Source: Gilvimarinus xylanilyticus (GTDB taxonomy: Bacteria > Pseudomonadota > Gammaproteobacteria > Pseudomonadales > Cellvibrionaceae). From it: a stretch of 64,000 bases of DNA. This document shows, one piece after another, positions 6,061-51,204 of this stretch. The stretch spans positions 62,001 through 126,000 of the forward strand of contig NZ_JAMFTH010000008.1 of NCBI RefSeq assembly GCF_024195295.1. The letters run 5' to 3'. The notes beneath the pieces are model-generated. The model was not told where the DNA came from. It saw only the letters and a list, made by a program, of their open reading frames with translations, and did no database searches. The position numbers and the translations under genes were made by a program. The stretch's first letter is position 1. The number at the start of each line of letters is the position of its first letter.

Positions 6061-6128
6061 AAAAAAACCTTTTGGCTCTGTGGTTAATAGATTGGCCTTG
6101 CCCTAAAGGTGGCCTGTGTTTTTGTGGG

Positions 6129-9483: not shown

Positions 9484-11301
9484 CTAGTGGCTGCTCTCTA
9501 CAAAGGCTTTCGCTCGGCGATACCGGTTGTTTAGAGGTAGCAATGGGTAAACATGAGTTCCGGGTTTTAATTGAGCGAAAGGGCCTGGCGTGTGATTGCC
9601 GGGCGGGCGAGCCGTGCCGCTAAAGGTATCAGGTACCGAGGGGTTGATGGTAAGTGATAGGTCAATGTTGTCGGCCGTTACGGGTGGTGCTGATAATGTT
9701 GCAACGGCTTCGGGTAAGGTCAGCTGCAGGCTCAAACTCGTCAGATTTTGTTGTAATGACCACTCCGCTTCGCCTTGTATGACGGTGGCGCTGTCTTCGT
9801 TGGGTAAAGGTTTGGAGCCTGCAAGGTACACGTTGTGGCTATAGTGAAAATTGGTAGCTTCAATTTCCGGATCCAGTCCATTGCCAATAAACAGATTGTT
9901 TAGCCAATAGCTGTCGGCAATAGTAGGGCGGTCTTGCCAATCTTGGTTTCCCCAGGTGTGCTCTGTGTTTAGAAATAAATTGTGCGCCATGACTTCCCCC
10001 CGAGACGAAAAAGCTGAAACTCGTCCGCCGACGATAATATTGTTAGCGAATACGTTCGGGTGGCCATCCCAGTTCGCCTCAAATAAGATTGATGAGGCTT
10101 CTGCGCCGATGATCACGTTGCTTTCAATGCGCCAGTCCTTATTTTGAAAGTCATTCCATATGCCGTGAGCTGCACCACGCTCTGGGTCCAACGTGTACAC
10201 ATTGCGAACAAGGTTATTTTTGATCACCAGGTTCGAGGTGGTGTGGTGTTTGATTCCGGCGGTCTCCCAGCCTCCAAACTCTTTGCGGTAATTCACATCC
10301 TCAATACGATTGCCGGCAATTACTGAATTTTTATTCCAGGTTTGTCCCGCAATACCGCCTTGGCCGCAGCGCAGCAGAACATTGTCGATCACCTGATGGT
10401 GGCCGCTGGCGGCTTCGTTCGCCGCGCTGTTGGGATTGCCAAGAGAAATGCATAAATTTTTGGCGTATAGCACGGTATTGTCTTTGATCACCCAATGATG
10501 GCCCCCATTTGGGCCAATCGCTCCAGGCTGAAAAACAGTGGGTGGTGCCCAGTGAGTGGCAACATTCTCAATAGAAAAACCTTCAACAGTGATATAGCCA
10601 AGGCCCGCTTTGCTTGGAAAAAAACCAAAAGGCCGGCTGGTGACTTCCACGTTAATTTCATTGGGGTTTAGCGCGGCAAAGTTAGCCCACAAGACCGTGT
10701 TTTCGCCGTCTTTTGTGACATGCCAGCTCATGGGGTTATCGGTTAGCTCTTCCAGTGTCTTGCGTTCGGTCAGTCCTTGGCCGTCGGCGATAATGTCACC
10801 AAGGTGAGTCCAGCGGCCGTACTTTAGCCAGCCCCATCCGTCACCTTCTTCGTCAGCGCTGACGTATTCGGGGTGACGCGTTAATTGATCGAAGGGATTG
10901 AATTCACCAAAAAACTCGGGGTTGAGAGAGACTCGGTAAAACCCGTTTGCTTGTTTCTGCCAGCCAGTTACGCGCTCGGACCCGAGGATGCGGACTTGCG
11001 CATTATCGGCCGCTTTAAAATGAATCGGGCCTTGCTCGGCGTTTCCGCCGCGCGGCGGGTTAACCCATTCGCGATAGGTCCCGGCGTGTATCAGCACGGT
11101 ATCGCCTGGCTGCGCTTTTTGTGCGGCAGCATTGATCGATTTGAAAGGATCGTCAACAGTACCGCTGGCCTGGTTCTTACCATCAGGCGCGACGTGATAA
11201 ATTCGCACGTCGTGGACGGTTTTATTTAGGGGCTGGCAAGCCGTTAAAGCTAGCGTAATAAAGAAAAAGGCCACTAAGCGGGACAGTGATTGGTAATTCA
11301 T
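9484..11301 (-). CDS. GH120 beta-xylosidase, lipoprotein
   Basis: 605 residues. The signal sequence ends in the lipobox LTAC (Cys22), so the enzyme is probably anchored in the outer membrane or periplasm. The body is a right-handed parallel beta-helix. Segments SGTVDDPFKSINAA, HAGTYREWVNPPRGG, FFGEFNPF, HLGDI and VATHWAPPTVFQPGAIGPN match the GH120 family founded by Thermoanaerobacterium XylC. The catalytic residues known there map to IWNDFQNK (Asp384, nucleophile) and ILFEANWDGHP (Glu408, acid/base), both conserved. Its role would be removal of xylose from xylo-oligosaccharides. It is divergent from the second membrane AraC gene, with paired AGTTCGA boxes upstream. Pectate-lyase-like annotation is the likely wrong alternative, because of the shared fold. 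Confidence 0.85.
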   Translation of the reverse strand: MNYQSLSRLVAFFFITLALTACQPLNKTVHDVRIYHVAPDGKNQASGTVDDPFKSINAAAQKAQPGDTVLIHAGTYREWVNPPRGGNAEQGPIHFKAADNAQVRILGSERVTGWQKQANGFYRVSLNPEFFGEFNPFDQLTRHPEYVSADEEGDGWGWLKYGRWTHLGDIIADGQGLTERKTLEELTDNPMSWHVTKDGENTVLWANFAALNPNEINVEVTSRPFGFFPSKAGLGYITVEGFSIENVATHWAPPTVFQPGAIGPNGGHHWVIKDNTVLYAKNLCISLGNPNSAANEAASGHHQVIDNVLLRCGQGGIAGQTWNKNSVIAGNRIEDVNYRKEFGGWETAGIKHHTTSNLVIKNNLVRNVYTLDPERGAAHGIWNDFQNKDWRIESNVIIGAEASSILFEANWDGHPNVFANNIIVGGRVSAFSSRGEVMAHNLFLNTEHTWGNQDWQDRPTIADSYWLNNLFIGNGLDPEIEATNFHYSHNVYLAGSKPLPNEDSATVIQGEAEWSLQQNLTSLSLQLTLPEAVATLSAPPVTADNIDLSLTINPSVPDTFSGTARPPGNHTPGPFAQLKPGTHVYPLLPLNNRYRRAKAFVESSH

Positions 11302-11403: not shown

Positions 11404-11432
11404 GAGTTCGATTTTGTCAGAAAAAAGTTCGA
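11404..11432. promoter_or_regulatory. Paired AGTTCGA boxes before the GH120 gene
   Basis: Two direct copies of AGTTCGA(T/G)TTT start at 11405 and 11426, a 21-base spacing that puts them on the same face of the helix, as AraC half-sites usually are. They lie about 105-130 bases before the GH120 start. The same box occurs as inverted pairs before the GH26 gene (32970-33002) and the di-haem gene (35431-35477). The rest of 11302-11818 shows no gene. Confidence 0.6.
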
Positions 11433-11818
11433 GTTTACACACATGCATTAGCGACCTTTTGTCGAGGGTCCCTGATGGGGAGACGTGGCGACTTGTTTGG
11501 TGCATTATCTATACTAGAACGCAGCCCGCGACAATGCTGGAGCAGAAGCTCGAAGTAGAGTCAGCATCGCCGTTACTTCAATAAAAATGAGGCAAGAAGG
11601 GCCAATCAACCCCTGGGCTGAGGAAGAACATCAAGTTTCATCCTACGGGCCTACTGTAGAATTTCGGTTCTGCTATCAATGCCTGTCGATATGGGGCGTG
11701 TTGTCAGTCGGCATAGGGCGCAATCACCACGGATGATAGAAATAATACTCGGTCGTCTTCTGCCTTGATCGGTGGCAAGGCAGGGTGTTTAGTCCGAGTT
11801 GTGTAAAGGTACCATTCG

Positions 11819-12958
11819 ATGACGATACTGGAAACGCTCAACCAACCTATTTTTAATCTATACGACTTCATTCTTTGGATGACGGCCTTGCAGGGGCTGA
11901 TTTTTGCCATGCTCTTGCAGTTTCGGTGTGAAAAAAGCGCTAGCCATCATTTGCTGTCCCTGTTTGTGGCTTCTGTAGGGGTTGGCCAATTGGTGTTTTT
12001 TGCCAGCTACAATCCTTACTTGGCCGGTATTTTAGGTCATTTGGGGCAGTGGAGCTTCGCTGTACTGGCGTTAGTGTTTTATCTACAGGGGCCGCTGCTG
12101 TTTCATTACTTGCGAACGCTGACGTTTGGTCATTACCGCCACCGGCGCGTCAATTGGATTCCGGTGGGTGTTTGGCTGGCTGTTTCCGCCGTTTTTTTGC
12201 TGTACTGGCCGCCGCTGCTGGAGCGTTTTTTTTGGCGACCGTTTGTGCTGATTGGCACAGTAGGGTTCGTGGTGTCTACCGTTTACGGAATGGCCAGCAT
12301 TGGCGTGATTCGCCGTTACTCACAGCGTCTTGAGGACCGTTTTTGTACGATCGAGAGTCTGGATTTTCTCTGGCTTAGAGTGTTCACCTGGGGTTTTTTG
12401 AGCATCTGGATCATGGAGGTGATCGCACCATTCAGCTACCACCTGGTGCCCTGGTTTGTGCAGCAGGTGATCTCCCACCTACCGAGCGTTGTGGAGATGT
12501 TGATGGTCAGTTTTGTGATCGTCGCCGGTTTGATGAACGCCCGGCGTCTGGAGCGAGTGAGCGAAGAGCCGGTATGGGACGAGCCCCGCCCCGACACTGG
12601 CCAACCCACCGGCGAAATGTTGCGTCAGCTGGATAAAACCATGCGAGAGCGGATGCTCTATGCTCAACCTCGAATGAATATTGAGCGTCTGGCCGATGAG
12701 CTCGATATGATGCCTCGTCAGTTATCCCACGTGATCAATCACTATTTCCACAAAAATTACTTCGAGTTTATTAATGACTACCGCCTGGAGCAGGCCTGCG
12801 TTCGTTTGCGTTCGCCGGGCTGGGCCGATAAATCTGTGCAGCAGATATACGAGTCGGTGGGGTTCCGCTCGAAATCTTCGTTTTTCACCTTGTTTCGCAA
12901 GTACGCTGGCATGACCCCTAACCAGTACCGGGAGCAGAGCCAAAAGGTTACGAAGTAG
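11819..12958 (+). CDS. Membrane-anchored AraC-family regulator (copy 2)
   Basis: 379 residues with the same plan as the gene at 8071: about seven hydrophobic N-terminal segments (FILWMTALQGLIFAMLL, FVLIGTVGFVVSTVYGMA, VVEMLMVSFVIVAGLM), a short cytoplasmic linker, and a C-terminal AraC domain with the two helix-turn-helix units MNIERLADELDMMPRQLSHV and VQQIYESVGFRSKSSFFTLF, ending GMTPNQYREQSQKVTK. It is divergent from the GH120 gene. Its last 38 bases, stop included, are duplicated at 32924-32961 in front of the GH26 gene, which indicates that GH26 once followed an AraC gene of this type directly. It is the best candidate to bind the AGTTCGA boxes, by proximity. Confidence 0.88.
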   Translation: MTILETLNQPIFNLYDFILWMTALQGLIFAMLLQFRCEKSASHHLLSLFVASVGVGQLVFFASYNPYLAGILGHLGQWSFAVLALVFYLQGPLLFHYLRTLTFGHYRHRRVNWIPVGVWLAVSAVFLLYWPPLLERFFWRPFVLIGTVGFVVSTVYGMASIGVIRRYSQRLEDRFCTIESLDFLWLRVFTWGFLSIWIMEVIAPFSYHLVPWFVQQVISHLPSVVEMLMVSFVIVAGLMNARRLERVSEEPVWDEPRPDTGQPTGEMLRQLDKTMRERMLYAQPRMNIERLADELDMMPRQLSHVINHYFHKNYFEFINDYRLEQACVRLRSPGWADKSVQQIYESVGFRSKSSFFTLFRKYAGMTPNQYREQSQKVTK

Positions 12959-13127
12959 GGGCATTGCGAGTTCGACTTTAACTGCAAGGGTCGAACTCGT
13001 ACCTTTGATGCGCGTCGGCGCGCAGGTGGTAACCCAGGCTGGCAGCGCTGGTTCTGAGGTAAGTTCAAATTGTTCGGACTTTAGCGCAAACGCAAACTCC
13101 GGTTTTTACTGTCTAAGATCAAACTTT
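12921..13127. repeat. Left copy of 207-bp direct repeat flanking the galactose/arabinan island
   Basis: Matches 32924-33130 in the same orientation and without gaps, with about ten differences by eye. It covers the last codons of the AraC gene and the following non-coding region with an inverted pair CGAGTTCGAC (12967-12976) / GTCGAACTCG (12990-12999). Weaker similarity continues to an AACGGGTG ribosome-binding site and ATG at 13186, equivalent to the GH26 start at 33214, but no GH26 sequence follows here. The copy looks like a promoter whose gene has been lost. Confidence 0.85.
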
Positions 13128-32923: not shown

Positions 32924-33130
32924 ACCAGTACCGGGAGCAGAGCCAAAAGGTTACGAAGTAGGGGCAGTGCGAGTTCGACTTTAACCGCAAGGCTCGAACT
33001 CGTACCTTTGATGCGCTTCGGCACTTAGCTGGTAACCCAGGCTGGCAGCGCTGGTTCTGAGGTAAGTTCAAATTGTTCGGACTGTAGCGCAAACGCAAAC
33101 TCCGGTTTTTCCTGTCTAAGATCAAACTTT
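32924..33130. repeat. Right copy of the 207-bp direct repeat, with an araC 3' remnant and the GH26 promoter region
   Basis: Same orientation and length as 12921-13127. Its first 38 bases are the last codons and stop of the membrane AraC gene, cut off from any upstream coding part. An inverted pair CGAGTTCGA (32970-32978) / TCGAACTCG (32994-33002) follows, of the same box type as before GH120 and the di-haem gene. This copy leads directly into the GH26 gene and so is probably its live promoter. Confidence 0.85.
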
Positions 33131-33213: not shown

Positions 33214-35355
33214 ATGCATAAGATCCTGAAAACTGTGGCGGTATTGCCCGCGCTCTATTGGGGCGCGGCGTCGGCCGCGATTGATTCCGGCGCGGTCAAT
33301 CTGCCCGCCGATGACAAGGTGCTTTACATCCTCGGGCAGGATACTTCTACGCTGCGCGACTATAAAAATCAGGTGGGTACAAGCGCCCCGGTGCCCGGTG
33401 GTGTAACACTCTATAGTTCGCTGCTGCCGGTGGAGGTCAATGCCAATTCCGCGCCGGCCGATGCCAGCCTGTACGTGAGCGGCATTGAAGGCCCACCGGT
33501 TGATAACTCCAACGGTGAAGTAGATTTTGCGGAAACGTTGGCTGACTACGATCAGCTCGCCGGTGGCGACTCGGTCGCTCTGGCGGTGGGGCTTTATTTG
33601 TCTGATGAGTGGGCCGATTGCGGTAACCAACCGCTGCGCGCTATTGCCGGCACCGGCGACAGTGACGTAGGCAGTGCCTCCGACCCGCAGTCACTGACGT
33701 CTCAGTACCGTTACGCCATTGACCGAATGTTGAACTACTTCAAGAACGATGGCCGTCCGGTTTATCTGCGTATCGGCTACGAGTTTGACGGGCCGTGGAA
33801 TTGCTACAACCAGGACTTTTACAAGCAGGCCTACCGCTGGATTGCCGATCGCATCGACACCTTGGGCGCCAACAACGTGGCTACCGTGTGGCAGGCCGCT
33901 ACCTACCCGGATAATGGCGATTCCGCCTATGACTTCGATGCCGGCAACAACCCATACCAGCATTACAGTGACTGGTATCCGGGCGATGATGCGGTTGACT
34001 GGGTGGGTCTTTCTTTTTTTGCCGGTAGCGAGTATCTGGCCTATCAATGGTCTTGCCAGGACGGCTCTAAGCCCTGGACGGTACCGGATATCAGCCCTCG
34101 TGCGCTGCAAGATACTCTGGTGCAATTTGCCAGCGATCGCGGCAAGCCGGCGATGATTGCCGAGTCTGCCCCCCAGGGCTTTGATATGGCTGCAAAAACG
34201 TATAGCTGTACCGCCTCGCGCACCAACACTCAGAGCTTTGCCAGCTCCCAGGCCATGTGGGATGCCTATTTTGTCGACTACTTTAACTGGATTGAGCAAA
34301 ACGCCGACCAAGTCCGCGCGTTTGCCTACATCAACACCGATTGGCAATCTCAGGGCCGCTGGTATTGCGCGCCGGGCGCCAGCGCCTGCGCATCGGGCTA
34401 CTGGGGCGTGACCTCGCTGCAGGCCGATACCGTTGTACTCAATAACTTCGCCGCCGAAGTCTCCGGCAGCCTTTATGCTACCGCTGGCAGTGCTGTGGGT
34501 GGGGGCCACACCGGCGGTGGTGACGGTGGCTCTGGTGATGATGGAAGCACCAACGACCCTGAGCAAAGTGCCTACACCAGCCAGTCAATCCCTGGTCGCA
34601 TTGAGGTCGAAGCCTTCGATAGTGGAGGTCAGGGAGTGGCCTACAGCGACACGGATGCCACCAACAACGGCGGTGCCCTGCGTCCAAACGAGGCGGTGGA
34701 CTTGCAAGCTACCAGCGATGACGCCGGCCAGAATCTGGGATGGACCGAAGACGGCGAGTGGCTTGAGTACACTCTCGACAGTGTCGTTGCCGATACCTAC
34801 GACATCGACGTACGTCTGGCTACGCCTAACACGGCGGGCAACCGCGCGCTGACTTTGTCGCTGGACGGCGACCCGCTGGCCACCGTGGATGTACCACAAA
34901 CCGGTGACTGGCAGAACTGGCAGACCGTTACTGTACCGGCGGTAAGCATCACAGGCGGTGCTGACCGCGTACTGCGCCTGGGTATTATCGGCGGCAGCTT
35001 CAACGTTAACTGGGTGGAGTTCACCCCAGTTGCCAATGATGGCGGCGGTGATGGCGAACCTATCGACCCGCCGGCCGGTAATGACTGCGGCGATTTTGGC
35101 ATCGCCTATCAAGACGACACCACCATGGTGCTCTACCACGCCGACGAAGGTTGGTCCGCCGATTGGAAATACCTGTGCCTGGATAGTGATTGCCGTTCGG
35201 CCACGCTCAATAACGGCTACTACACGCGGGCCGTGAGCGGTCAATTGGGGCAGAGCTACAGTGTTGAGTTCAAAGTGCAGCAAACTGCCGCGCCCGGTCA
35301 GTTTATAGCCGGTCCGCAGACCTTTACGTTCAACAATGCCTGCACTTTGCCTTAA
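33214..35355 (+). CDS. GH26 xylanase (probable beta-1,3-xylanase) with CBM6 and a CBM31-like domain
   Basis: 713 residues from ATG 33214 (GGGTGA upstream). A signal peptide ends near GAASAAID. The catalytic domain, residues 30-415, shows KVLYILGQDTSTL, VYLRIGYEFDGPWNCY (acid/base Glu190), DAVDWVGLSFF and KPAMIAESAPQGFD (nucleophile Glu317), the pattern of GH26 beta-1,3-xylanases from marine bacteria. A Gly/Asp-rich linker leads to a CBM6-like beta-sandwich (about 460-604: IEVEAF, GWTEDGEWLEYT, NVNWVEF). The last 90 residues hold four Cys (DCG; LCLDSDC; NNAC) compatible with two disulfides, as in CBM31. The substrate is inferred from family and nearby xylose genes; beta-mannanase is the main alternative. 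Confidence 0.82.
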   Translation: MHKILKTVAVLPALYWGAASAAIDSGAVNLPADDKVLYILGQDTSTLRDYKNQVGTSAPVPGGVTLYSSLLPVEVNANSAPADASLYVSGIEGPPVDNSNGEVDFAETLADYDQLAGGDSVALAVGLYLSDEWADCGNQPLRAIAGTGDSDVGSASDPQSLTSQYRYAIDRMLNYFKNDGRPVYLRIGYEFDGPWNCYNQDFYKQAYRWIADRIDTLGANNVATVWQAATYPDNGDSAYDFDAGNNPYQHYSDWYPGDDAVDWVGLSFFAGSEYLAYQWSCQDGSKPWTVPDISPRALQDTLVQFASDRGKPAMIAESAPQGFDMAAKTYSCTASRTNTQSFASSQAMWDAYFVDYFNWIEQNADQVRAFAYINTDWQSQGRWYCAPGASACASGYWGVTSLQADTVVLNNFAAEVSGSLYATAGSAVGGGHTGGGDGGSGDDGSTNDPEQSAYTSQSIPGRIEVEAFDSGGQGVAYSDTDATNNGGALRPNEAVDLQATSDDAGQNLGWTEDGEWLEYTLDSVVADTYDIDVRLATPNTAGNRALTLSLDGDPLATVDVPQTGDWQNWQTVTVPAVSITGGADRVLRLGIIGGSFNVNWVEFTPVANDGGGDGEPIDPPAGNDCGDFGIAYQDDTTMVLYHADEGWSADWKYLCLDSDCRSATLNNGYYTRAVSGQLGQSYSVEFKVQQTAAPGQFIAGPQTFTFNNACTLP

Positions 35356-35430: not shown

Positions 35431-35477
35431 AGTTCGAGTTTATCCACCCCCTGACGGGTACCGGGCAAACTCGAACT
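35431..35477. promoter_or_regulatory. Inverted AGTTCGAGTTT pair before the di-haem gene
   Basis: AGTTCGAGTTT (35431-35441) and AAACTCGAACT (35467-35477) are perfect reverse complements, 25 bases apart, about 100 bases before the ATG at 35578. The box matches those before GH120 and GH26, so the three genes probably answer to one AraC protein. Confidence 0.6.
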
Positions 35478-35577: not shown

Positions 35578-38319
35578 ATGTCTACACCTATATCGTTCAA
35601 ACGAGCGTTCGCCGCCAGTGCGGCGCTCACACTGGGAGCGGCCGCCACTACAACTCAGGCCGCCCCCATTGATGTCAGCCTGAACGCCAGTGGCGAGCTG
35701 TTGCTGGAATACACTTTCGATGAGCAAAAAAGCGGTGGTATGTGGTTGTCGGGTTACGACAATGGCCAGTGGTTTTACACCATCATCGAGGGCGCCACAG
35801 AGACCAACCTTGGTGGTGGTCAGTGGCGCTATAGCTACCAAAGTAATTTGAATTGCAGCTCAGGGAATTCCCTCTCCCTGCGTATTCAGGGCAACTACTC
35901 ACAGGTGGATTGGTTGCCGGGGCCTACCTCGGAGGATTACCTGGATGTCAGCTGTGACGGCCTTGCCGGTGGCGGCAGTAGTTCGAGTAGTTCGAGCGCC
36001 GCTTCCAGTTCCAGCGTTTCGCCTCAGCCTCCTGCCGGTGCTCCCAGTGTGAGCGTCAGTGCAGGCGATGGCGAAGTTAGCCTGAGCTGGCAAAGCGTCA
36101 GCGGCGCTGCCAGTTACCGGGTGGATTACGGCGTGGCGACCGGCGCGCTGGACAATAGTGTTACCACTTCTGCGACGGATTATACAGTGGCCGGACTGAG
36201 TAACGGTGTGGCCTACGACTTCACGGTGGCCGCCGTGAACAGCGAGGGTGAAGCGGTGTCCCCACGCGTGAACGCCACGCCCGAGACGGTCGGCACCGGA
36301 GGTGGGGGTGGCGCCAATGTGTTTGGCCTGGAATCGGACGGCACGGCCTACCACACCGACGGTGGACAGACCGGCGATTGGGTCTATCTGTGTTTGGACG
36401 GCGACTGCCGCGCGGCCAGTTTGAACGGTGGGCGCTACGAGTACATGTTCAATGTCTCCAGCGCTCAAAGCTATGATGTGCAGTTTAAAGTCCAGGACGA
36501 TGCCAGCTCTCAGTGTATTGCCGATGCGGCGGGGCTCACCCCCGGTGGCGGTGTGACCAGCTCGCCCTGCGCCGCGGGTGGCAGCACGGGTGGCTCTGGG
36601 GGCGACTCGGGCTCGGGCGATGACGGTTCTGGCGATGACGATACCGGAGGTAATGGCGGTGCCGGCAACGGCTTTGGCAGTGCTGGCGGTGTGCGCGTCG
36701 AGAACGGCGTGGTGATTGCCGAGGTGGGCGAGCGCTACCGCGTGCGTCACGAATTGTCTGCAAGTAATTTCAATAACTTCAATGTGGAATATTGGCGTGC
36801 TCGCTATGGCGCCCTGCAGTTGCGCGACTATACGCGTGCGGCCGCCGCCAGTCAGCGCCAAGCGGCGTGTGGCAGCACAGACCCCTGTGTGGTGGTTCGC
36901 CTCGATAGCGCGGTGCCGCTGTCTATGACGGATGGGGCGGGCAACAGCAAAGACTGCAATCAGCAATCGCCTAACTTCCGGTACCACAAGTTTTACGGGG
37001 ATGAGACCAACTTTTACTACGGCTACGTTATGGATATTTTGCTGCCAGACGGTACCGTGGTGCCGGCGTGCAGTGCCACGCAGAGCCAGCGCGCGAACGC
37101 CACCAGCTGGCAGGCTGTGATGCGCACCGATGCCAATATTCCGCGGGATTTTGAGCGCGGCGCACAAGTGGAGTTTGAGGTCACCATTAACTTTGACCGG
37201 GCCCAGGTAACGGGTGACAACGTCAACTACTATGGTCAGACCTTCCGCTATGTATTGGGGGAGGGTTTTGTGGTCAACAATCAGGATCCGGCCATTGGAC
37301 CGGTGGGCATTAATGACAGCTTTGCCAAACTGGGCGGTGATACCACGGTGCCTCACCTGTCTGACACGGGCGGTGAACAGCGCCGGCTGTCATTTATGCA
37401 GCACGCCTACAATATAAGCCCTGCAAACATCGAGAACTGGTTGCAGGGGCGACGCCTGTTCCATACCGACTTTGCGTATGGAAACCATGTGGAGCAGTTG
37501 CTTCCCGGGCCTCAGGCCATTGGCGGTAATCTGCCGTTCCCGGCCATGGCCGGCAAGGCGACCAACCCGGTACAGACGAGCTGCACAGCCTGTCATACCA
37601 ACAACAGCGTGGGCCCCATGCAGACCGGTGCGGATGTGGTGCCGCCCAAAATGATTGGCCTGGGGTTGCTGGGGGCTATTCCCGACAGCCAGATTGAGGC
37701 CTGGGCCGCGGAGAATGGTGGCACTGTCAGCCGTGTGACGGTGGGTGGCGCCCAGCAGATCGGGCGTTTTGGTTGGCGCGCGGAGGCCGTGAGCGTCGAG
37801 CATCAGGTCGCCAAGGCGCTTCACGACGACATCGGCGTGGGCACCAGTGTGGCCGACTTTGGTCCTTCGGAGCTTACTGACGCCCAGCTTATGGATCTGG
37901 TGACTTATTCTTCTTTGCTCGCGGTGCCTGTGCCGCGCGATAACCTGGCCGGGTCGACAGGTTTGGCGCAGTTCGAGTCTTTTGGGTGCGCCGGCTGTCA
38001 CAGGCCCACAGCCACCACTGGCAGCAATACTGATTTTCCCGAGATTGCTAACCAGACGATTCATCCGTTCACGGACTTGCTGTTGCACGATTTGGGTGAG
38101 GGGGCCTTTCGTACGGCGCCGCTTTGGGGGCTGGGTTTGTCCGGCTACGTCAGCAATGGCTCGACTTCTGCGCTGGAGTTGATGCATGACGGTCAGGCTG
38201 CCTCGATTGATGAGGCGGTACAGAGGCACAACGGCGATGCGTCGGCGAGCAAGGCCGCCTATAACGGCGCTACCGGTGGGTCGCGGCAGGCGATGATCGA
38301 CTTTTTGATGTCGCTTTAG
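35578..38319 (+). CDS. Secreted CBM-FN3-CBM-di-haem (DUF1111) fusion protein
   Basis: 913 residues from ATG 35578 (GGGGA upstream). Signal peptide to about residue 28. Residues 30-128: beta-sandwich with LLEYTFDEQKSGGMWLSGYD and two Cys, probably sugar-binding. A Ser linker (133-147). FN3 domain, 155-235. Residues 247-331: domain with WVYLCLDGDCRAASLN like the C-terminus of the GH26 enzyme. A Gly/Asp linker to 370. Residues 371-570: unknown beta-rich domain. Residues 575-913: DUF1111 di-haem oxidoreductase with haem motifs CTACH (669-673) and CAGCH (804-808), MIGLGLLGAIPD and IGRFGWRAEAVSVEHQVA. It is presumably an extracellular redox protein docked on xylan; electron donor to a polysaccharide monooxygenase is one hypothesis. 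Confidence 0.82.
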   Translation: MSTPISFKRAFAASAALTLGAAATTTQAAPIDVSLNASGELLLEYTFDEQKSGGMWLSGYDNGQWFYTIIEGATETNLGGGQWRYSYQSNLNCSSGNSLSLRIQGNYSQVDWLPGPTSEDYLDVSCDGLAGGGSSSSSSSAASSSSVSPQPPAGAPSVSVSAGDGEVSLSWQSVSGAASYRVDYGVATGALDNSVTTSATDYTVAGLSNGVAYDFTVAAVNSEGEAVSPRVNATPETVGTGGGGGANVFGLESDGTAYHTDGGQTGDWVYLCLDGDCRAASLNGGRYEYMFNVSSAQSYDVQFKVQDDASSQCIADAAGLTPGGGVTSSPCAAGGSTGGSGGDSGSGDDGSGDDDTGGNGGAGNGFGSAGGVRVENGVVIAEVGERYRVRHELSASNFNNFNVEYWRARYGALQLRDYTRAAAASQRQAACGSTDPCVVVRLDSAVPLSMTDGAGNSKDCNQQSPNFRYHKFYGDETNFYYGYVMDILLPDGTVVPACSATQSQRANATSWQAVMRTDANIPRDFERGAQVEFEVTINFDRAQVTGDNVNYYGQTFRYVLGEGFVVNNQDPAIGPVGINDSFAKLGGDTTVPHLSDTGGEQRRLSFMQHAYNISPANIENWLQGRRLFHTDFAYGNHVEQLLPGPQAIGGNLPFPAMAGKATNPVQTSCTACHTNNSVGPMQTGADVVPPKMIGLGLLGAIPDSQIEAWAAENGGTVSRVTVGGAQQIGRFGWRAEAVSVEHQVAKALHDDIGVGTSVADFGPSELTDAQLMDLVTYSSLLAVPVPRDNLAGSTGLAQFESFGCAGCHRPTATTGSNTDFPEIANQTIHPFTDLLLHDLGEGAFRTAPLWGLGLSGYVSNGSTSALELMHDGQAASIDEAVQRHNGDASASKAAYNGATGGSRQAMIDFLMSL

Positions 38320-38460: not shown

Positions 38461-39507
38461 ATGAGTAAAAAACAACGCGCGGGTAAATCGACACGGGTCA
38501 CCATGAAAGATGTCGCCGAAAGAGCTGGCGTGTCTTTAATGACGGTTTCAAGGGTTCTCAATAAAGATCGAGTGGCGGCCGCCACTTACGACAAGGTAAT
38601 GGCAGCGGTAGAGGCGTTAAACTATCGCTTGGACGCGTCAGCTCGCAGCTTATCTGGGGCGCAGTCTTATCTGATCGGTTTTTTTTACGATAACTCTCTC
38701 GGTAGCTACATCAGTCAGTATCTGATTGGTGTTCTTAAGCGCTGCAATGAGCTTGGGTATCACCTCGTCATTGAGCCTTGCTCTTACGGCGACAATGACG
38801 TGGACGCTGTGGTTGGCGAGTTAACCAAGCGTTACAAACTGGATGGCATGATCATCCCCCCGCCGCTGTGTGAATATGTCCCCTTGTTAGATGCGCTGGA
38901 TAAAGCCGGTGTGCGTTACGTGCGTGTGGGGCCGGGTTTAGAGTTGGAGCGATCCTCCTACGTTTCTATCGACGACTACCGGGCCACCTTTGAAATGACC
39001 GAGCACTTGATTGCGCAAGGGCATTCGTCTATCGGATTCATAAAGGGGGATACCCACCAAGGAATCGCCGTCAGCCGTTACAAAGGGTTCCAGGATGCAA
39101 TGAGCAAGCATGGCTTGGTCGTTGATGAAGCGCTTGTCGCAGAAGGGGACTTTTCTTTTAATAGCGGGATGAAGGCCTGCGCGAAAATATTGGATGCCGG
39201 TAAACCTGTGACGGCAATTTTTGCCAGTAATGACGATATGGCCAGCGCGGTCATTGCAACGGCACACCGTCGCAGCCTTTGGGTTCCTGAGGACTTGGCC
39301 GTTGCGGGTTTTGACGATACGAACATTGCCACCTCTATTTTTCCTCAGCTCACAACCGTGCGTCAGCCGATTGAAGAGCTGTCCTCTCAGTCCGTTAACT
39401 TGTTAATTGAAGTGGTTAAGGCCGATAGCTTATTGGGGATAAAGCTTCAAAAACATGAGGTATTGGCCCACTCCCTTGTGCAGCGCGGCTCAACGGCTCC
39501 TGAGTAA
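38461..39507 (+). CDS. LacI-family repressor, probable xylose/xylo-oligosaccharide regulator
   Basis: 348 residues. The DNA-binding head is VTMKDVAERAGVSLMTVSRVLN with hinge YRLDASARSLSGAQSYLIG. The periplasmic-binding-protein-like body includes KLDGMIIPPPLCEYVPLLD, IGFIKGDTHQGIAVSRYKGF, ASNDDMASAVI and AVAGFDDTNIATSIFPQLTTVRQPI. It lies just before the xylan TonB receptor, whose leader holds a GTTAACGTTAAC operator. Because the same operator occurs before xylBA and the GH43 operon, I infer that this protein represses all three and is released by xylose or a xylo-oligosaccharide. GalR at 13304 is the competing candidate. Confidence 0.85.
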   Translation: MSKKQRAGKSTRVTMKDVAERAGVSLMTVSRVLNKDRVAAATYDKVMAAVEALNYRLDASARSLSGAQSYLIGFFYDNSLGSYISQYLIGVLKRCNELGYHLVIEPCSYGDNDVDAVVGELTKRYKLDGMIIPPPLCEYVPLLDALDKAGVRYVRVGPGLELERSSYVSIDDYRATFEMTEHLIAQGHSSIGFIKGDTHQGIAVSRYKGFQDAMSKHGLVVDEALVAEGDFSFNSGMKACAKILDAGKPVTAIFASNDDMASAVIATAHRRSLWVPEDLAVAGFDDTNIATSIFPQLTTVRQPIEELSSQSVNLLIEVVKADSLLGIKLQKHEVLAHSLVQRGSTAPE

Positions 39508-42769: not shown

Positions 42770-42799
42770 GTTGAGTCAAAATAATAACAGAGGTTGGAT

Positions 42800-44272
42800 A
42801 TGAGCCAGAGAGTCGAGTCGTTAACCATTGTTGGCGGTGGCACCGCAGGTTGGATGGCCGCTGCAGCGTTGAGCAAGGTTTTTAAAAGATTAAAAGTCAC
42901 TCTCGTGGAATCGGATTCCATCGGTACCGTGGGTGTCGGTGAGGCCACCATACCGACACTGCAATTTTTTAATCAGCTGCTGGGCATTAATGAACGCGAC
43001 TTTGTTCGAGAGACTCAAGCCACGTTTAAGCTTGGAATTCAATTCGAGGGCTGGCGTTCACCGGAGCAAAAGTACATCCACGGTTTTGGTGAAACCGGCA
43101 AGAACTATTGGGCCGCGGGCTTTCATAATTTTTGGCGCCGTGGTGACGAGTTGGGGCTCGCTGAATCGTTCGGAAGGTATTGCCGTGAAGTTCAGGCTGC
43201 CCAAGCGGATCGATTTGCAATTGGCCCTGACAGTGGCTTGAACTACGCCTACCACCTGGATGCTACCCGATATGGCCAGTATTTGCGGAAAATAGCTGAG
43301 CGTAACGGAGTAATACGAGAAGAAGGCAAAGTCACGCGAGTGGATCAATGCAAAGATAGCGGAAATATTCTGTCGGTTACCTTGGATAACGGAAAAAGTG
43401 TTGACGGTGATTTGTTTATTGATTGCACGGGTTTTGCAGCGTTGCTGATTGAAAAGACATTGCAGACAGGTTATGAAGATTGGAGCCATTGGTTACCCTG
43501 CGACAGGGCGATTGCTCTGCAAACTGAGTTAACCGGAGACCCCAAGCCCTATACTCGCGCAGTCGCGCACAAGGCTGGCTGGCGATGGGAGATTCCCCTT
43601 CAGCATCGTCGTGGTAACGGGATTGTGTATTCCAGCGAATATTTGCCGGACGATGAAGCGCTAAATTTATTAAACCACTCCGTCCAAGGAGGGCTGACAT
43701 CAGAGCCCAATAAGATTCGGTTTGTGACAGGAAAGCGGAAACTGCAGTGGAATAAAAACTGTATTGCTCTGGGGCTTGCCAGCGGGTTTTTGGAGCCTTT
43801 GGAGTCCACCAGTATTCACCTTATTCAGCAGAATATCTTAAAGCTCATTAAGTTGTTTCCGGACAGTGTTGAGTGCGCATTGGACCGCGATGAATTTAAC
43901 CGAAGGGCGGATGCTGAGTATCGCCAGGTGCTGGATTTTATCGTTTTGCATTATCGCTTGACCGAGCGAAGTGATTCGCCATTCTGGCGGCATTGTCGCA
44001 CCATGAGCGTGCCTGACTCTCTGGCACATCGTATGGAGCAGTTCCAGGAAACGGGGCGATTCTTTCTGGAAGATGGCGAGCTGTTTGTCGACTCTTGGTT
44101 TCAGGTGATGATCGGGCAGGGCCTCATTCCAAAAACCTATCACGCCGTTGTGGATGAAATGCCAGAGAGTGAGCTGGCCGCAATGCTAAAGCAATTATCT
44201 CAAAGTGTGCAGTCGCATATTGCCAAGCTACCCAGTCACGCGGAATTTCTAAAGCGCTACCTTTCGGTGTAA
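42800..44272 (+). CDS. Flavin-dependent tryptophan-halogenase-like protein
   Basis: 490 residues from ATG 42800 (AGAGG upstream). The FAD-binding GGGTAGW motif is at residues 12-18. The halogenase signature WRWEIP (261-266) is intact, as are the lysine equivalent to PrnA Lys79 (Lys77 in TFKLGIQFEGW) and the catalytic glutamate region GFLEPLESTSIHLIQ. By family knowledge such proteins chlorinate or brominate an aromatic ring with FADH2 and hypochlorous acid made in situ. Members next to TonB receptors in polysaccharide loci are widespread but their substrate is not known. No flavin reductase gene is nearby. It probably shares the receptor's promoter. Confidence 0.88.
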   Translation: MSQRVESLTIVGGGTAGWMAAAALSKVFKRLKVTLVESDSIGTVGVGEATIPTLQFFNQLLGINERDFVRETQATFKLGIQFEGWRSPEQKYIHGFGETGKNYWAAGFHNFWRRGDELGLAESFGRYCREVQAAQADRFAIGPDSGLNYAYHLDATRYGQYLRKIAERNGVIREEGKVTRVDQCKDSGNILSVTLDNGKSVDGDLFIDCTGFAALLIEKTLQTGYEDWSHWLPCDRAIALQTELTGDPKPYTRAVAHKAGWRWEIPLQHRRGNGIVYSSEYLPDDEALNLLNHSVQGGLTSEPNKIRFVTGKRKLQWNKNCIALGLASGFLEPLESTSIHLIQQNILKLIKLFPDSVECALDRDEFNRRADAEYRQVLDFIVLHYRLTERSDSPFWRHCRTMSVPDSLAHRMEQFQETGRFFLEDGELFVDSWFQVMIGQGLIPKTYHAVVDEMPESELAAMLKQLSQSVQSHIAKLPSHAEFLKRYLSV

Positions 44273-45076: not shown

Positions 45077-46681
45077 ATGAAGAATCAAAATATTCGTAAC
45101 CCCATTTTACCGGGCTTTAACCCTGACCCATCTATTGTTCGAGTTGGCGATGATTATTATATCGCTACGTCAACTTTCGAGTGGTATCCCGGTGTGCAAA
45201 TTCACCATTCTCGCGATTTGAAAAACTGGCGTTTGGTGAGTCGTCCACTTAACCGCCCTGCGTTATTGGACATGACGGGTGAACCCGATTCTTGCGGTGT
45301 TTGGGCTCCCTGTCTCAGTTGGGCAGATGGGCGCTTTTGGCTTATTTACACCGATGTGAAGCGCTTTGATGGTAACTTTAAAGACACTCATAATTACCTC
45401 ACCACTTGCGAAAGTATTGATGGTGAGTGGAGCGATCCCGTGTACCTAAACAGCAGTGGTTTTGACCCCTCGCTGTTTCACGATGAGGATGGCCGCAAAT
45501 GGCTTGTGAACATGGTGTGGGACCACCGACCCGAGCGAACGTTTTTCGGCGGAATTTTACTGCAGGAATACGATGTATCTTCGCAACAGCTTATCGGCAC
45601 CGCGAAAAATATTTTTGCAGGCTCGACGTTAGGGTTTACGGAAGGGCCCCATATATACAAGCGCGATGGATATTACTATCTACTGACGGCTGAAGGTGGT
45701 ACAGGCTACGATCATGCAATGACCTTAGCCCGGTCGCGTTCTTTAACCGGCCCTTACGAGCTGGACCCCAATGGCCACTTTATTACCGCTAAAGATAACC
45801 CTGAGCTTGCCATACAAAGATGTGGCCACGGTGCGGTAGTGGATACGCCTAACGGAAGTGAGCACTATGCTGTTCACTTGTGCTCGCGGCCGTTTTCGCC
45901 TAATGATCGCTTCAGTCCGTTGGGGCGAGAGTCGGCGATACAGCGAGTGCGGTGGGATGATCAAGGCTGGCTGCGCCTCGACAATGATTCGAACTTGCCG
46001 GAAACTTCGGTGCCGGCGCCGAACCTGCCAGAACACCCGTGGCCAGCGGAAGCGACTGATTTTGATTTTATAAGCAGCGAACTGCCTCAAGCGTTTCAGT
46101 GGTTGCGAACTCCGCGCCATGAACGTTTATTTAGCTTGACGGAGCGGGCCGGGTGTTTGCGGCTGTTTGGACGAGAATCTTTGGGGAGCCATTTTGAATC
46201 GGCATTAGTAGCTTTACGCCAAGACTGTCTGAGCTGTGAAGCGGGAACACTGGTGGAATTTAATCCAGAAAATTTTCAGCAAATGGCTGGTTTGGTGTGT
46301 TACTACAATTCGCAGAAGTTTCATTATTTATACATCTCTCACGATGAGGCACTTGGCAAACATTTGGCGATCATGTCCTGCGATGCGAAGTTGGGGCTGG
46401 AGGCGAGTTTCCCGGTTGCTCCGATTGCGTTGGAGCAGAATAAGAAAGTGCATTTAAAAGCCGTGATTAGGCGGGCTGAACTGACTTTCAGTTATCGCTA
46501 TGACGATAGTGAATGGTGTGAGTTGCCTGTTACGTTAGATTATCGGCATTTGTCTTGCGAAGCGGGAAAAGGCGAGGGCGCAAGCTTTACTGGTACCTTT
46601 ATTGGTATGGCGTGTCAGGATTTAACCGGCACAGCGCGGGCTGCTGATTTTCATCATTTTTATTACCAACGAGACGAATAA
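45077..46681 (+). CDS. GH43 beta-xylosidase, cytoplasmic
   Basis: 534 residues, no signal peptide. The propeller starts at once with NPILPGFNPDPSIVRVGDDYYIATSTFEWYPG, a signature split here as FNPDPSIVRVGDDYY (general base Asp) and STFEWYPGV. SSGFDPSLFHDEDGRKWLV carries the second Asp and FTEGPHIYKRDGYYYLLTAEGG the acid Glu. The C-terminal 200 residues are the beta-sandwich typical of the XynB type, making 534 residues the standard length. It releases xylose from the non-reducing end of imported xylo-oligosaccharides. It is the first gene of a five-gene operon with a 2-oxoglutarate oxygenase, a sugar porter, an oxidoreductase and GH26. Confidence 0.93.
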   Translation: MKNQNIRNPILPGFNPDPSIVRVGDDYYIATSTFEWYPGVQIHHSRDLKNWRLVSRPLNRPALLDMTGEPDSCGVWAPCLSWADGRFWLIYTDVKRFDGNFKDTHNYLTTCESIDGEWSDPVYLNSSGFDPSLFHDEDGRKWLVNMVWDHRPERTFFGGILLQEYDVSSQQLIGTAKNIFAGSTLGFTEGPHIYKRDGYYYLLTAEGGTGYDHAMTLARSRSLTGPYELDPNGHFITAKDNPELAIQRCGHGAVVDTPNGSEHYAVHLCSRPFSPNDRFSPLGRESAIQRVRWDDQGWLRLDNDSNLPETSVPAPNLPEHPWPAEATDFDFISSELPQAFQWLRTPRHERLFSLTERAGCLRLFGRESLGSHFESALVALRQDCLSCEAGTLVEFNPENFQQMAGLVCYYNSQKFHYLYISHDEALGKHLAIMSCDAKLGLEASFPVAPIALEQNKKVHLKAVIRRAELTFSYRYDDSEWCELPVTLDYRHLSCEAGKGEGASFTGTFIGMACQDLTGTARAADFHHFYYQRDE

Positions 46682-46780: not shown

Positions 46781-47503
46781 ATGAACTACGAAGCGTTGGC
46801 CCAGCAATTCTGGCGCGATGGTTATTTGGTGCTAGAGGATTTTTTTTCTGCCGATTTGATGGATCAGTATCAGGAGTTGATAGTTCGTCATTTTGGTTCA
46901 AGTCCGGCATTTCTTCACACCGATGAATTTTTGAACAAATCTGCTACAGAGGTCATCCCCTGGTTTCCTCAGCAAGAGGGGCAAAACGCCTTTGATGTGG
47001 CGCAGAATGATGAGCGCTTGCAAGCGCTGACAGAAGCGATTTTAGGCGAGGGGTGGTATTCGCTGTACTGCATGACCATGTTTTCTCGCAAAGGAACCAA
47101 AGGTCAGGCGTGGCATCAGGACTGCGATCCGCAGGAAAGCGCCGCCCGCTTCAACGTGAATCGGCTAATCTACACTGAGGATATCCGCGAAGAGATCGGC
47201 GGCCAGACACTGGTTATACCCGGCTCTCATCGGCGGGGCACTATCACCGTGGGTGACGTGAACGAGGATTTTGCAGATCAAACAGTACTGACACCTAAAA
47301 AAGGGACCTTAGTGATGCTTCATGGCCATACCTGGCATCGAGTTCGCCCCGTTATTGGAGGCTATCGGGTGTCCACCAATTACCGCTGCTGTCCGCAAGG
47401 TACGCCGGAAAATATTACCGATGTGTGTGTTTACCGCAACATGCGTTACAAGTTTGAAACCAGTTCGGTAGTGGAAGATCGTATGGCGGGGGGTGATGCA
47501 TGA
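46781..47503 (+). CDS. Phytanoyl-CoA dioxygenase (PhyH)-family Fe(II)/2-oxoglutarate oxygenase
   Basis: 240 residues. The iron-binding facial triad is visible as His112-x-Asp114 in AWHQDCDPQ and the distal His in LHGHTWHRVRP; the 2-oxoglutarate-binding Arg is probably in GGYRVSTNYR. PhyH-family enzymes hydroxylate small molecules, and hydroxylation of a methyl ether leads to loss of formaldehyde. In a xylan operon a methylated sugar is therefore one attractive substrate, but this is inference. The stop overlaps the start of the next gene by four bases, so the two are translationally coupled. Confidence 0.82.
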   Translation: MNYEALAQQFWRDGYLVLEDFFSADLMDQYQELIVRHFGSSPAFLHTDEFLNKSATEVIPWFPQQEGQNAFDVAQNDERLQALTEAILGEGWYSLYCMTMFSRKGTKGQAWHQDCDPQESAARFNVNRLIYTEDIREEIGGQTLVIPGSHRRGTITVGDVNEDFADQTVLTPKKGTLVMLHGHTWHRVRPVIGGYRVSTNYRCCPQGTPENITDVCVYRNMRYKFETSSVVEDRMAGGDA

Positions 47504-49101: not shown

Positions 49102-50072
49102 GCCGAATTATTCGCTGGGGGCTTTTAAGTGCGGGCAATATTGCGGGGCAATTTGCCCAGGACTTTAGCGCGGTGGAAAATGCGGTAATCCATGCAGTGG
49201 CCGCTCGCAATGGTGACATTGCTCGCGCCTTCGCCCGCGAGCACGGTATAGAGAAGGCCTACGCAGGTTACGAACCGCTGCTGGCGGATTCAGAAATCGA
49301 TGTGATTTACATCGGGACTCCCCACAGCTTGCATTTCGAACATGCCAAGGCCGCGTTGGAGCATGGCAAAGCAGTGCTGTGCGAAAAGCCGATGACGGTA
49401 ACCCCCGAAGAATGCGAAGAGCTACAGCGTGTCGCCTTGCGTACAAGTGGCTACTTGATGGAAGCCATGTGGACGTACTTTCTCCCGCCGGTGCAGACGG
49501 CTTTGCGTTGGGTACAAGAGGGGCGCATTGGTCGCATTTGCCAGATTAAAGCTGATTTTGGGTACCCTCAGTTTCCTTTCGATTCTAAAAAGCGTGTGTA
49601 CGATGCGAGCTTGGCAGGCGGTTGTCTGTTGGAGATGGGAGTATATCCCGTAGCGTTGGCGTGGCTATTTATGAGGCAAGACCCGGCGGAGATTCAGGTA
49701 GTGGCCCGTCATGCGCCTAACGGGGTCGAAGATGATCTGGCCATCTTATTTAATTATCCAGAATCCGTTGTGACCTTAGGTACGTCCTTCCGTTGTAAGC
49801 TGCAAAACTGGGCGTACATCATTGGTGAGCAAGGCTATATCGCTATCCCCGATTTTTGGCGCGCACGCGAAGCGTCTCTGTATGTGTTGGATGATCGAGT
49901 TGATCACTTTGTAGATAAGCGTGCTACCGAGGGCTTTCATTACGAAGCTCAGGCCGTCACCAACGATCTGCTTGCGGGCAGGGCAGGCTCTTCGGTGGTG
50001 GCCGCGCGAGACAGTCTGGCCATTCAGCGCCAAATGGCCATGATTCGTGAGGCGTTTTCCGATGAAGCGTAA
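49098..50072 (+). CDS. Gfo/Idh/MocA-family NAD(P)-dependent oxidoreductase
   Basis: 324 residues. The N-terminal Rossmann fold reads IRWGLLSAGNIAGQFAQDF; YIGTPHSLHFEHAKAALEHGKAVLCEKP contains the family's conserved EKP lysine, followed by LMEAMWTYFLPP. The C-terminal half (GGCLLEMGVYPVALAWLF) has the substrate-site segment. Relatives include trans-1,2-dihydrobenzenediol and D-xylose 1-dehydrogenases, so oxidation of xylose or a modified pentose is plausible. The start overlaps the porter gene by four bases and the stop overlaps the GH26 start by eleven. Confidence 0.87.
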   Translation: MSRIIRWGLLSAGNIAGQFAQDFSAVENAVIHAVAARNGDIARAFAREHGIEKAYAGYEPLLADSEIDVIYIGTPHSLHFEHAKAALEHGKAVLCEKPMTVTPEECEELQRVALRTSGYLMEAMWTYFLPPVQTALRWVQEGRIGRICQIKADFGYPQFPFDSKKRVYDASLAGGCLLEMGVYPVALAWLFMRQDPAEIQVVARHAPNGVEDDLAILFNYPESVVTLGTSFRCKLQNWAYIIGEQGYIAIPDFWRAREASLYVLDDRVDHFVDKRATEGFHYEAQAVTNDLLAGRAGSSVVAARDSLAIQRQMAMIREAFSDEA

Positions 50073-51204
50073 AATACTCACTAAAACCGCTTTGGCCCTG
50101 ATGGCCGTGTTAATACTGAGCCTCGTTGCCTGTGGTGGGGCGGGCGGTGGTTCTGCCGGACCGGCTTCCAATGGGTCCGGCTCTCCTGACCCAGAAGCCC
50201 CGGCCCCCGAACCAACTGAGCCTGAGCCCAGCACTCCGCAAGAGCCGGTATCGGACATGCCCTCGTTGAATCGCCCTGAAACCGAGAAGACCTGGGTGTT
50301 TATTGGCCAGGATAATGCGTCCGTCGGAGGCAACTTCACCTACAGCAACGGCTATGTCGATCACCTGGGTGTGCCGGCGGGAATTACCTCTTATCTGGGG
50401 TTTGGGTTTGACTGTCTACCGGTGTTACCTGGGTTGGCCACCAGCGTCGACTATGGCGCTGGCCCCATTAACCTGAAACATTATCTGGATTCGGGCACCC
50501 TCGATGGAGTACGGATACACCTGTCCCTTGACATGGCCTATGGTGACTCAGAAGTGGCCATCGCCAATGGCGACAAAGACGCCTGCATTGAACAAATGGC
50601 CCGCTTTATGGGCGATTACCCAGAGGTGTTTTTCTTTGTACGTCCGGGGTACGAATTTGACGGTGCGCATAACCACTACGAGCCCGAGGCCTTCAAACAG
50701 GCCTACCGCCGTATCGTGGATACTTTCCTTGAGTATGAATTGAGCAACTTTAATACTGTAATGAGCTCGGTCACACCCGCCACAAAGGCGGGCCGCTGGG
50801 AGCAGTATTGGCCCGGGGATGATTATGTGCACTGGGTGGGGTATTCGCTGTTTGACAGTGGTCTGGTTTTAGGTGCATCCGAGCCCGCTACGGTGCAGTT
50901 CGCCCGGAACAAACAAAAGCCGGTGTTTATCGCCGAAGCTGCGCCGCGAGGTTATCAATTGGATGAACTCTCCGAGTCCGAATCGCTTGCTCTGTGGGAT
51001 AGCTGGTACCGCCCGGTGTTTGCCCATATCGAGCAGCACGCCGATATCATTGGTGTTTTTGCCTATATTAACGCCGACTGGGAGTCTCAAGCCTTGTGGG
51101 CGGATGAGGATTGGGGCGATACTCGTATACAGGCCAATGTGTGGCTTCGCTCTCTTTGGGAGGAGAAAGTTTCGACGCAAGGTGTTACCCCATCGCCCGA
51201 ATAG
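50062..51204 (+). CDS. GH26 lipoprotein, probable beta-1,3-xylanase
   Basis: 380 residues from ATG 50062, inside the end of the previous gene. Lipobox LVAC (Cys24) followed by a Gly/Ser then Pro/Glu-rich linker (about 25-70) suggests a surface lipoprotein on a flexible stalk. The catalytic domain shows TWVFIGQDNASVGGNF, FFVRPGYEFDGAHNHY (acid/base Glu198), DDYVHWVGYSLF and KPVFIAEAAPRGYQ (nucleophile Glu292), the same family as the gene at 33214 but without binding modules. Being surface-anchored and co-transcribed with the porter and xylosidase, it probably trims long chains at the cell for import. Confidence 0.8.
   Translation: MKRKILTKTALALMAVLILSLVACGGAGGGSAGPASNGSGSPDPEAPAPEPTEPEPSTPQEPVSDMPSLNRPETEKTWVFIGQDNASVGGNFTYSNGYVDHLGVPAGITSYLGFGFDCLPVLPGLATSVDYGAGPINLKHYLDSGTLDGVRIHLSLDMAYGDSEVAIANGDKDACIEQMARFMGDYPEVFFFVRPGYEFDGAHNHYEPEAFKQAYRRIVDTFLEYELSNFNTVMSSVTPATKAGRWEQYWPGDDYVHWVGYSLFDSGLVLGASEPATVQFARNKQKPVFIAEAAPRGYQLDELSESESLALWDSWYRPVFAHIEQHADIIGVFAYINADWESQALWADEDWGDTRIQANVWLRSLWEEKVSTQGVTPSPE

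Follow-up and report, generated by a model that had tools for sequence, protein, structure and literature searches.

We examined a 64,000-nucleotide stretch of the Gilvimarinus xylanilyticus genome (contig NZ_JAMFTH010000008.1, positions 62,001 to 126,000; hereafter called the window) for the gene of a predicted secreted protein, P0001, which unites a carbohydrate-binding module (CBM) of family CBM31, a conserved domain here called X, and a di-haem oxidoreductase core (DHOR; DUF1111, Pfam PF06537). Our tentative reading, to which we give somewhat less than an even chance, is that P0001 is a polysaccharide-anchored, peroxidase-derived di-haem oxidative enzyme that acts beside a glycoside hydrolase of family 26 (GH26) on a beta-1,3-glycan. 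Of the mechanisms weighed here, it is the most economical. The host strain, HB14T, is a marine bacterium that was isolated from a green alga and degrades 1,3-xylan, as described in the accessible part of PMC9638140. The substrate is therefore taken to be beta-1,3-xylan, and the "xylan" of the first-pass annotation, which had placed a carbohydrate-docked di-haem oxidoreductase in a xylan locus, is to be understood in this sense. What that annotation observed was confirmed, and its interpretation is partly supported.

The P0001 gene, delimited by open reading frame (ORF) call and Pfam matches, runs on the forward strand from an ATG at 35578 to a stop codon ending at 38319 and encodes 913 amino acids. 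A probable signal peptide, judged by eye, occupies residues 1 to 29 (35578 to 35664). It is followed by a module of residues ~30 to 128 (35665 to 35961) that is common to the orthologues and matches no Pfam family; its only relatives in the window and 58 loci were found in L006, L009, and L140 (E ≤ 5.6e-36) and in L147 (E = 3e-4). Next come an FN3 domain (residues 158 to 226, 36049 to 36255; Pfam fn3, E = 6.6e-8), CBM31 (residues 256 to 316, 36343 to 36525; PF11606, E = 1.1e-8, 35.6 bits versus a curated cutoff of 25), and the beta-rich domain X (residues ~366 to 592, 36673 to 37353), with conserved R388, H391, D417, E534, and Y552. The DHOR core closes the chain (residues ~596 to 913, 37363 to 38316) and was recognized by Pfam, a structure model, and profile comparison. 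PF06537 matches it in two stretches, the best being residues 763 to 913 (E = 3e-29; 102.3 bits versus a curated cutoff of 22). The core holds the two haem motifs, CTACH (residues 669 to 673, 37582 to 37596), for the haem expected to be peroxidatic (haem 1), and CAGCH (residues 804 to 808, 37987 to 38001), for haem 2, and P0001 would be expected to incorporate haem at both. No LPMO (lytic polysaccharide monooxygenase) domain and no YceI or DUF1587-type match was found among its 11 Pfam families.

This make-up agrees with the first-pass annotation in its signal peptide, FN3, and di-haem domain, and the 200-residue domain of no known family proved real and conserved (H391 in 78, R388 in 74, and E534 in 79 of 80 aligned proteins). 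One of the two sugar-binding modules that had been proposed is CBM31; the other (residues ~30 to 128) matched no family. CBM31 modules are known to bind 1,3-xylan. Binding of 1,3-xylan by P0001 is thus predicted from its family, and the docking on carbohydrate that had been suggested is supported at this level.

To place the di-haem core, we used hhalign to compare a profile of 53 X-DHOR sequences (A2; 53 of 61 proposed rows) with seven peroxidase-type proteins from related genomes. The match to bacterial cytochrome c peroxidase (CCP), at 98.8% probability and E = 4.7e-17, is confined to the DHOR core. Gln743 was aligned with the conserved pocket Gln of the peroxidases, and so was the HDG motif with its counterpart. 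His884 (38227 to 38229, forward strand) occupies the position at which bacterial peroxidases have a Met ligand, both in this alignment and in that of PDB sequence hits; therefore, haem 2 should be bis-His. In peroxidases, these residues have catalytic and pocket roles, and haem 2 of MauG has a Tyr ligand. Consistent placement came from the structure model of P0001 (predicted template modeling score [pTM], 0.88), for which a Paracoccus di-haem peroxidase was the sole PDB match at E ≤ 0.001. Conservation around the haems is strong in an alignment of 80 proteins of at least 480 amino acids with exactly two CxxCH motifs (L013 to L015, L026, L031, L039, L051, L052, L066, L072, L083, L084, and L119 were also set aside): R845, T846, W850, and H870 occur in all 80 rows, H884 in 79, Asp751 in 76, and Gln743 in 69. 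The Pfam family PF03150 (CCP/MauG) did not match P0001 at E ≤ 1, and it matched P0003, a paralogue described below, and three homologues below its cutoff. By profile comparison, the DHOR core is kin to CCP/MauG at the superfamily level.

Profile search of the host genome (G000; 3,930,865 bp, 13 contigs) gave three DHOR genes, all with CBM31, and three of the four CBM31 proteins of the host are these DHOR proteins. The other two, P0002 and P0003, adjoin on contig C8 (L005), the second 1,3-xylan locus. P0002 (1,673 amino acids) has the order GH26-CBM31-CBM6-DHOR and, by architecture and size, fits the published Xyn65 (GH26-CBM31-CBM6-Big-DHOR), whereas P0003 (1,212 amino acids) carries CBM31, a weak CBM6 match, Lipoprotein_15, and DHOR. 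A GH26-DHOR paralogue of P0001 has thus, by architecture, already been published. According to the accessible part of PMC9638140, Xyn65 accounted for 82.3% of the spectra from secreted 1,3-xylanases, the recombinant protein from E. coli hydrolyzes 1,3-xylan, and the authors noted its DHOR, suggesting an oxidoreductase activity or a binding or stabilizing role. Xyn65 and P0001 share a genome, the union of CBM31 and DHOR in one secreted chain, and a 1,3-xylan target. They differ in that Xyn65 carries the GH26 enzyme, belongs to another DHOR clade, and has a haem spacing of 113 versus 135 in P0001, which has no hydrolase and is not mentioned in that part of the paper. Beyond this paper, our literature search found no description of a CBM-DHOR family, and a search on DUF1111, PF06537, and di-haem oxidoreductase found no assay of family activity. 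Beside GH26-DHOR genes, a gene for a protein of 466 to 487 amino acids with one CxxCH (cluster 13; at L005, 4275 to 5675, reverse strand) recurs at L017, L023, L145, L149, and L150; because L017 and L150, and likewise L023 and L149, apparently come from the same genomes, these represent 4 independent loci. No Pfam match was found for two members of this cluster and no PDB match for one; the protein is a possible redox partner. A similar partner was looked for at the window locus and is absent.

The distribution of the family was assessed in 100 Cellvibrionaceae genomes. DHOR was found in 77 and X (profile A4) in 42 of them; by eye, all of the X matches listed lie in frames also listed for DHOR, with the DHOR half in an adjoining frame in G060. 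Fifteen of 27 CBM31 frames in these genomes are DHOR frames. Across 143 genomes of the class, the host included, DHOR occurred in 20. None of the 22 DHOR frames in the 142 other genomes exceeds 612 amino acids, versus X in 42 of the 100 family genomes, so that a long DHOR protein as an ordinary class trait was rejected. CBM31-DHOR proteins occur outside the family as well, for example in Neiella, Povalibacter, a Steroidobacter metagenome-assembled genome (MAG), and a Holophagae MAG, and a search of viral contigs found no relative. Among 57 N-terminal parts (proteins cut by a contig end, L010, L012, and others were set aside), Pfam recognized CBM31 in 25, F5/8C in 15, Lipoprotein_15 in 12, CBM56 in 11, CBM6 in 10, and GH16 and GH26 in 4 each. 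The "secreted repeat of unknown function" PF03640 was present in 12 of the 57, e.g., at residues 501 to 529 of P0003.

Sorting by polysaccharide was examined in a tree of 82 DHOR cores from proteins of at least 600 amino acids and ten chosen stand-alone or short ones, leaving out L010, L013, L014, L026, L083, L084, L119, and both Vibrio maritimus orthologues (L007 and L012). Labels were set with custom profiles, xylan standing for CBM31 or GH26 and glucan for CBM56 or GH16. Thirty rows carried the xylan label (11 of them with GH26 by the custom profile), 24 the glucan label, 10 F5/8C only, and 18 none. No protein carried both labels above threshold, with one marginal CBM31 match in L126 (1e-4). 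A single change separates xylan from glucan labels; compared with all other rows, xylan labels change 4 times and glucan labels 6 times (shuffled means, 24.3 and 20.9). The spacing of the haem motifs is 112 to 116, 135, or 150 on the xylan side and 223 to 227 on the glucan side. Among xylan rows, GH26 fusion requires 7 changes and was therefore gained or lost repeatedly.

Gene neighborhoods were counted for 59 rows with at least 12 kb of sequence, excluding the window row and 22 shorter ones. Of the 25 xylan rows, 20 have GH26 either fused to the DHOR protein or in its vicinity, and none has GH16 in such a position; of the 12 glucan rows, 8 have GH16 there and none has GH26. GH26 also occurs in this way in 1 of 13 other rows. 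These counts include some loci whose neighboring GH26 is part of a further DHOR protein, and related rows do not count as independent. Neither hydrolase was found in 9 F5/8C rows. The fusion therefore keeps to polysaccharide loci in most of the CBM31 branch, which is what the first-pass annotation implied, but apparently not in a three-locus F5/8C-DHOR branch (L120, L121, and L155). The latter loci share one conserved neighborhood with an epimerase-like gene (cluster 16) and two-component-looking genes among housekeeping-looking neighbors. Five GH16-DHOR fusions (L128, L130, L131, L132, and L133; ~1,550 to 1,840 amino acids, 4 of 5 with CBM56) are the 1,3-glucan counterparts of Xyn65.

Upstream of P0001 lies an inverted box, AGTTCGAGTTT-N25-AAACTCGAACT, with perfect 11-bp inverted arms (35431 to 35477). 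A related inverted box with 12-bp arms, 92% complementary, precedes the GH26 gene (32967 to 33005), and two direct copies stand before the GH120-like gene (11405 to 11436), the first (11405) with one mismatch and the second at 11426. The box said in the first pass to be common to the three genes is thus inverted before GH26, whereas GH120 has direct copies and no inverted box. Presence of the shared box before P0001, GH26, and GH120 supports their predicted co-regulation, which would act through this element; AraC and LacI genes are both present as candidates for binding it. Exact copies of the box, AGTTCGASTTT, number 10 genome-wide, compared with 5 for the reversed control. Six of these copies are inside the window, two being arms of one box, and the remaining 4 fall within ORFs. 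With one mismatch allowed, the core occurs 14 times in the window versus 3.78 expected, and 0 of 100 shuffles reached 14. One-mismatch copies lie ~190 bp upstream of P0003 and ~95 bp upstream of the P0001 orthologue of G. algae; no copy was found upstream of P0002. A stretch around the box is near-identical at 12955 to 12990, just after the AraC gene, and at 32950 to 33005, before GH26, and could represent the duplication of an element with a terminator-like or regulatory role.

Under the mechanism that we tentatively favor, P0001 would be secreted as a DHOR protein of the CCP/MauG superfamily, made together with the GH26 1,3-xylanases, and held on insoluble beta-1,3-xylan by CBM31. Haem 1, in an open peroxidase-type pocket with Gln743 and perhaps Asp751, would form a high-valent iron-oxo species from H2O2 (or reduced O2), and haem 2, probably bis-His, would relay electrons. 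Domain X is likely to give the active face its shape. The oxidizing equivalents would go to the bound glycan or to something tightly associated with it, and the oxidation could loosen the triple-helical chains for GH26. Of this scheme, the domain make-up, the conservation, the kinship of the core with di-haem peroxidases, the shared box, and the sorting of the family by binding module and hydrolase are observed; the conjectural parts are the incorporation of haem, the binding of 1,3-xylan, control through the box, the oxidant, and the glycan as the substrate.

Several observations weigh against the proposed oxidative role. Asp751 is aligned with the catalytic Glu of the peroxidases in the PDB-sequence alignment but falls at a gap in hhalign, and the presence of both CxxCH motifs in 80 of 80 rows is a consequence of row selection. 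The fork that joins the xylan side of the tree is weak (52), and a warning from the tree program points to long branches coming together there. The sorting by label is in part circular, as fused GH26 and GH16 help to set the labels, and reflects largely vertical inheritance. The orthologue from Vibrio maritimus (L007; 578 amino acids) gave no CBM31 match, and GH26 was not found in the neighborhood of those from Aliagarivorans (L008 and L010). As for domain X, the A4 profile has one match in the host genome and does not detect the equivalent part of P0002 or P0003; in the Xyn65 clade, only the 80-row alignment (H391 in 78 of 80) therefore points to X. In the homologue L125, X was modeled as an Ig-like sandwich (pTM, 0.75), with no significant fold relative in a structure search. 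Our literature search found no report of a functional test for P0001, and the accessible part of PMC9638140 reports no haem or redox test of Xyn65. An LPMO-like fold for X was also considered and rejected for now: 13 AA9-type structures were among the top 50 for the P0001 model, all at E ≥ 0.26 and TM < 0.3, and none was in the top 50 for X of L125 alone.

The strongest rival reading is that P0001 is a protective peroxidase, which would clear the H2O2 of stressed algae at the wall surface and shield GH26 and the cell while leaving the glycan untouched. We consider it unlikely. The CCP-type core would suit it, as would the annotation of DHOR by Pfam as a putative peroxidase, and since the host genome search gave no CCP_MauG match, the DHOR proteins may be the only di-haem peroxidase-type proteins of this bacterium. 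A scavenger, however, need not sort by glycan, and fusion to GH26 or GH16 with polysaccharide-specific CBMs would be an odd investment for one. Moreover, the fold does not prove the activity, as RoxA, of related fold, is without peroxidase activity according to the accessible part of PMC6797691.

The first-pass annotation had offered two functions: that P0001 supplies electrons to a polysaccharide monooxygenase or that it oxidizes xylan ends itself. The former, in which P0001 would serve an LPMO by passing it electrons (or by regulating H2O2) in the manner of the Cbp2D cytochrome part, seems to us distinctly improbable. As had been stated, no monooxygenase is in the window, which has no AA10 match. 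A search of the rest of the genome found two AA10 genes, both on a contig that carries neither of the 1,3-xylan loci. The donor role drew slight backing from co-occurrence, AA10 being present in 62 of the 100 Cellvibrionaceae genomes, namely 38 of 42 with X versus 24 of 58 without, an overlap that may just mirror a polysaccharide-degrading lifestyle. The isolated cytochrome domain of Cellvibrio japonicus Cbp2D also reduces LPMOs in vitro (PMC8981238, accessible part). Against this role, 4 of 42 X genomes (Marinibactrum halimedae [G015], G025, G080, and G086), 98 to 100% complete, have no AA10; M. halimedae, at 98% completeness, has 10 DHOR matches. AA10 was likewise not found in G099, which has a CBM31-DHOR protein. 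By eye, no AA10 gene lies within 20 kb of any of the DHOR genes listed, the nearest pair on one contig among these being ~23 kb apart. The two host AA10 proteins carry chitin/cellulose-type modules (CBM5/12 in one, GbpA2-CBM10-CBM2 in the other), and a pure donor would not need a peroxidase-type pocket. A putative oxidation of xylan by P0001 itself is better supported than the donor role, since the peroxidase-type core is conserved and its lineages divide according to polysaccharide.

Very improbable, in our view, is a chemically inactive DHOR part that now serves as a binding or stabilizing module. It is one option proposed by the Xyn65 authors, and Xyn65 made in E. coli is active on 1,3-xylan (both from the accessible part of PMC9638140), yet the core residues that surround the haems recur in 69 to 80 of the 80 rows, a conservation beyond what a spacer would require. 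Most improbable of all is an extracellular electron conduit that would exchange electrons with metal or with a chain of cytochromes at the surface and use the glycan just for anchoring: the mono-CxxCH protein of cluster 13 recurs beside GH26-DHOR genes, and DHOR genes that stand alone show linkage to iron uptake genes of the imelysin type, but the window locus lacks the cluster 13 partner and the sorting by glycan would be left unexplained.

Around P0001, the window holds a 1,3-xylan utilization locus, in which a GH26 1,3-xylanase with CBM31, xylosidases, and a shared upstream box were found. The "xylan locus" of the first pass is thus borne out, with the polymer being beta-1,3-xylan. The GH26-CBM6-CBM31 1,3-xylanase (33214 to 35355, forward strand) fits the published Xyn80 by architecture and size. 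A second, single-domain GH26 (50062 to 51204, forward) scores E = 0.005 in Pfam, below the curated cutoff, and clusters with the other GH26. Beta-xylosidases are represented by a GH120-like gene (9484 to 11301, reverse) and a GH43 gene (45077 to 46681, forward). Xylose isomerase and xylulokinase genes, named from sequence, occupy 4729 to 7628 (reverse), and a LacI-type regulator gene (38461 to 39507, forward) has a paralogue at the second 1,3-xylan locus. Tryptophan-halogenase-like and PhyH-like genes (42794 to 44272 and 46781 to 47503; also named from sequence) recur in such loci.

Copper LPMOs are known to attack polysaccharides oxidatively. Our literature search found no oxidative enzyme for beta-1,3-xylan, and a text search of the accessible part of the 1,3-xylan pathway paper PMC12125979 found none of the redox terms looked for. 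The family of P0001 is large, almost unstudied, and matched to two beta-1,3-linked seaweed sugars, which hints at an oxidative attack not known so far. More broadly, X-DHOR might be a haem-based polysaccharide-oxidizing module for beta-1,3-linked triple-helix glycans, a haem counterpart of LPMOs with separate 1,3-xylan (CBM31/GH26) and 1,3-glucan (CBM56/GH16) lineages that also serves bacteria without detected AA10; as a joint claim, we regard this as possible but rather doubtful. If the glycan itself is oxidized, P0001 would represent a new enzyme class. As these di-haem modules follow the glycan, are fused to hydrolases and CBMs, and are kept without detected AA10, they make a testable case for extracellular haem chemistry on algal walls, with implications for the turnover of marine carbon and for the puzzle of Cbp2D-like cytochrome function. 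Because the paralogue Xyn65 can already be produced in E. coli, a test is within reach once haem is incorporated.

Among known systems, P0001 is close in its core to CCP/MauG (PF03150), with which it shares a homologous core, the proximal His, the pocket Gln, and the HDG motif, and from which it differs by a His instead of the Met ligand, the extra domain X and CBMs, and its apparent polysaccharide-directed secretion. The RoxA rubber oxygenase is likewise a secreted, peroxidase-related di-haem protein with an insoluble polymer as substrate and a bis-His C-terminal haem; it differs by a hydrophobic pocket without acid-base catalysts (PMC6797691, accessible part). As RoxA attacks rubber, a fold related to the P0001 core can act on an insoluble polymer. 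RoxA as a direct relative was rejected, with no rubber oxygenase among 34 PDB sequence hits. AA10 LPMOs would share with P0001 the supposed purpose of oxidative attack on insoluble polysaccharide, but they use copper and no haem, and P0001 is without an LPMO domain. Cbp2D and Cbp2E of C. japonicus (CBM2, X158, X183, and X132) are CBM-bearing c-type cytochromes of a cellulolytic relative and have been proposed to cut cellulose directly (PMC12542752, accessible part). They differ from P0001 in having single-CXXCH cytochrome domains, a YceI-like domain, and cellulose instead of beta-1,3-glycans as the target, and no DHOR is named for them in the accessible parts of PMC8981238 and PMC12542752.

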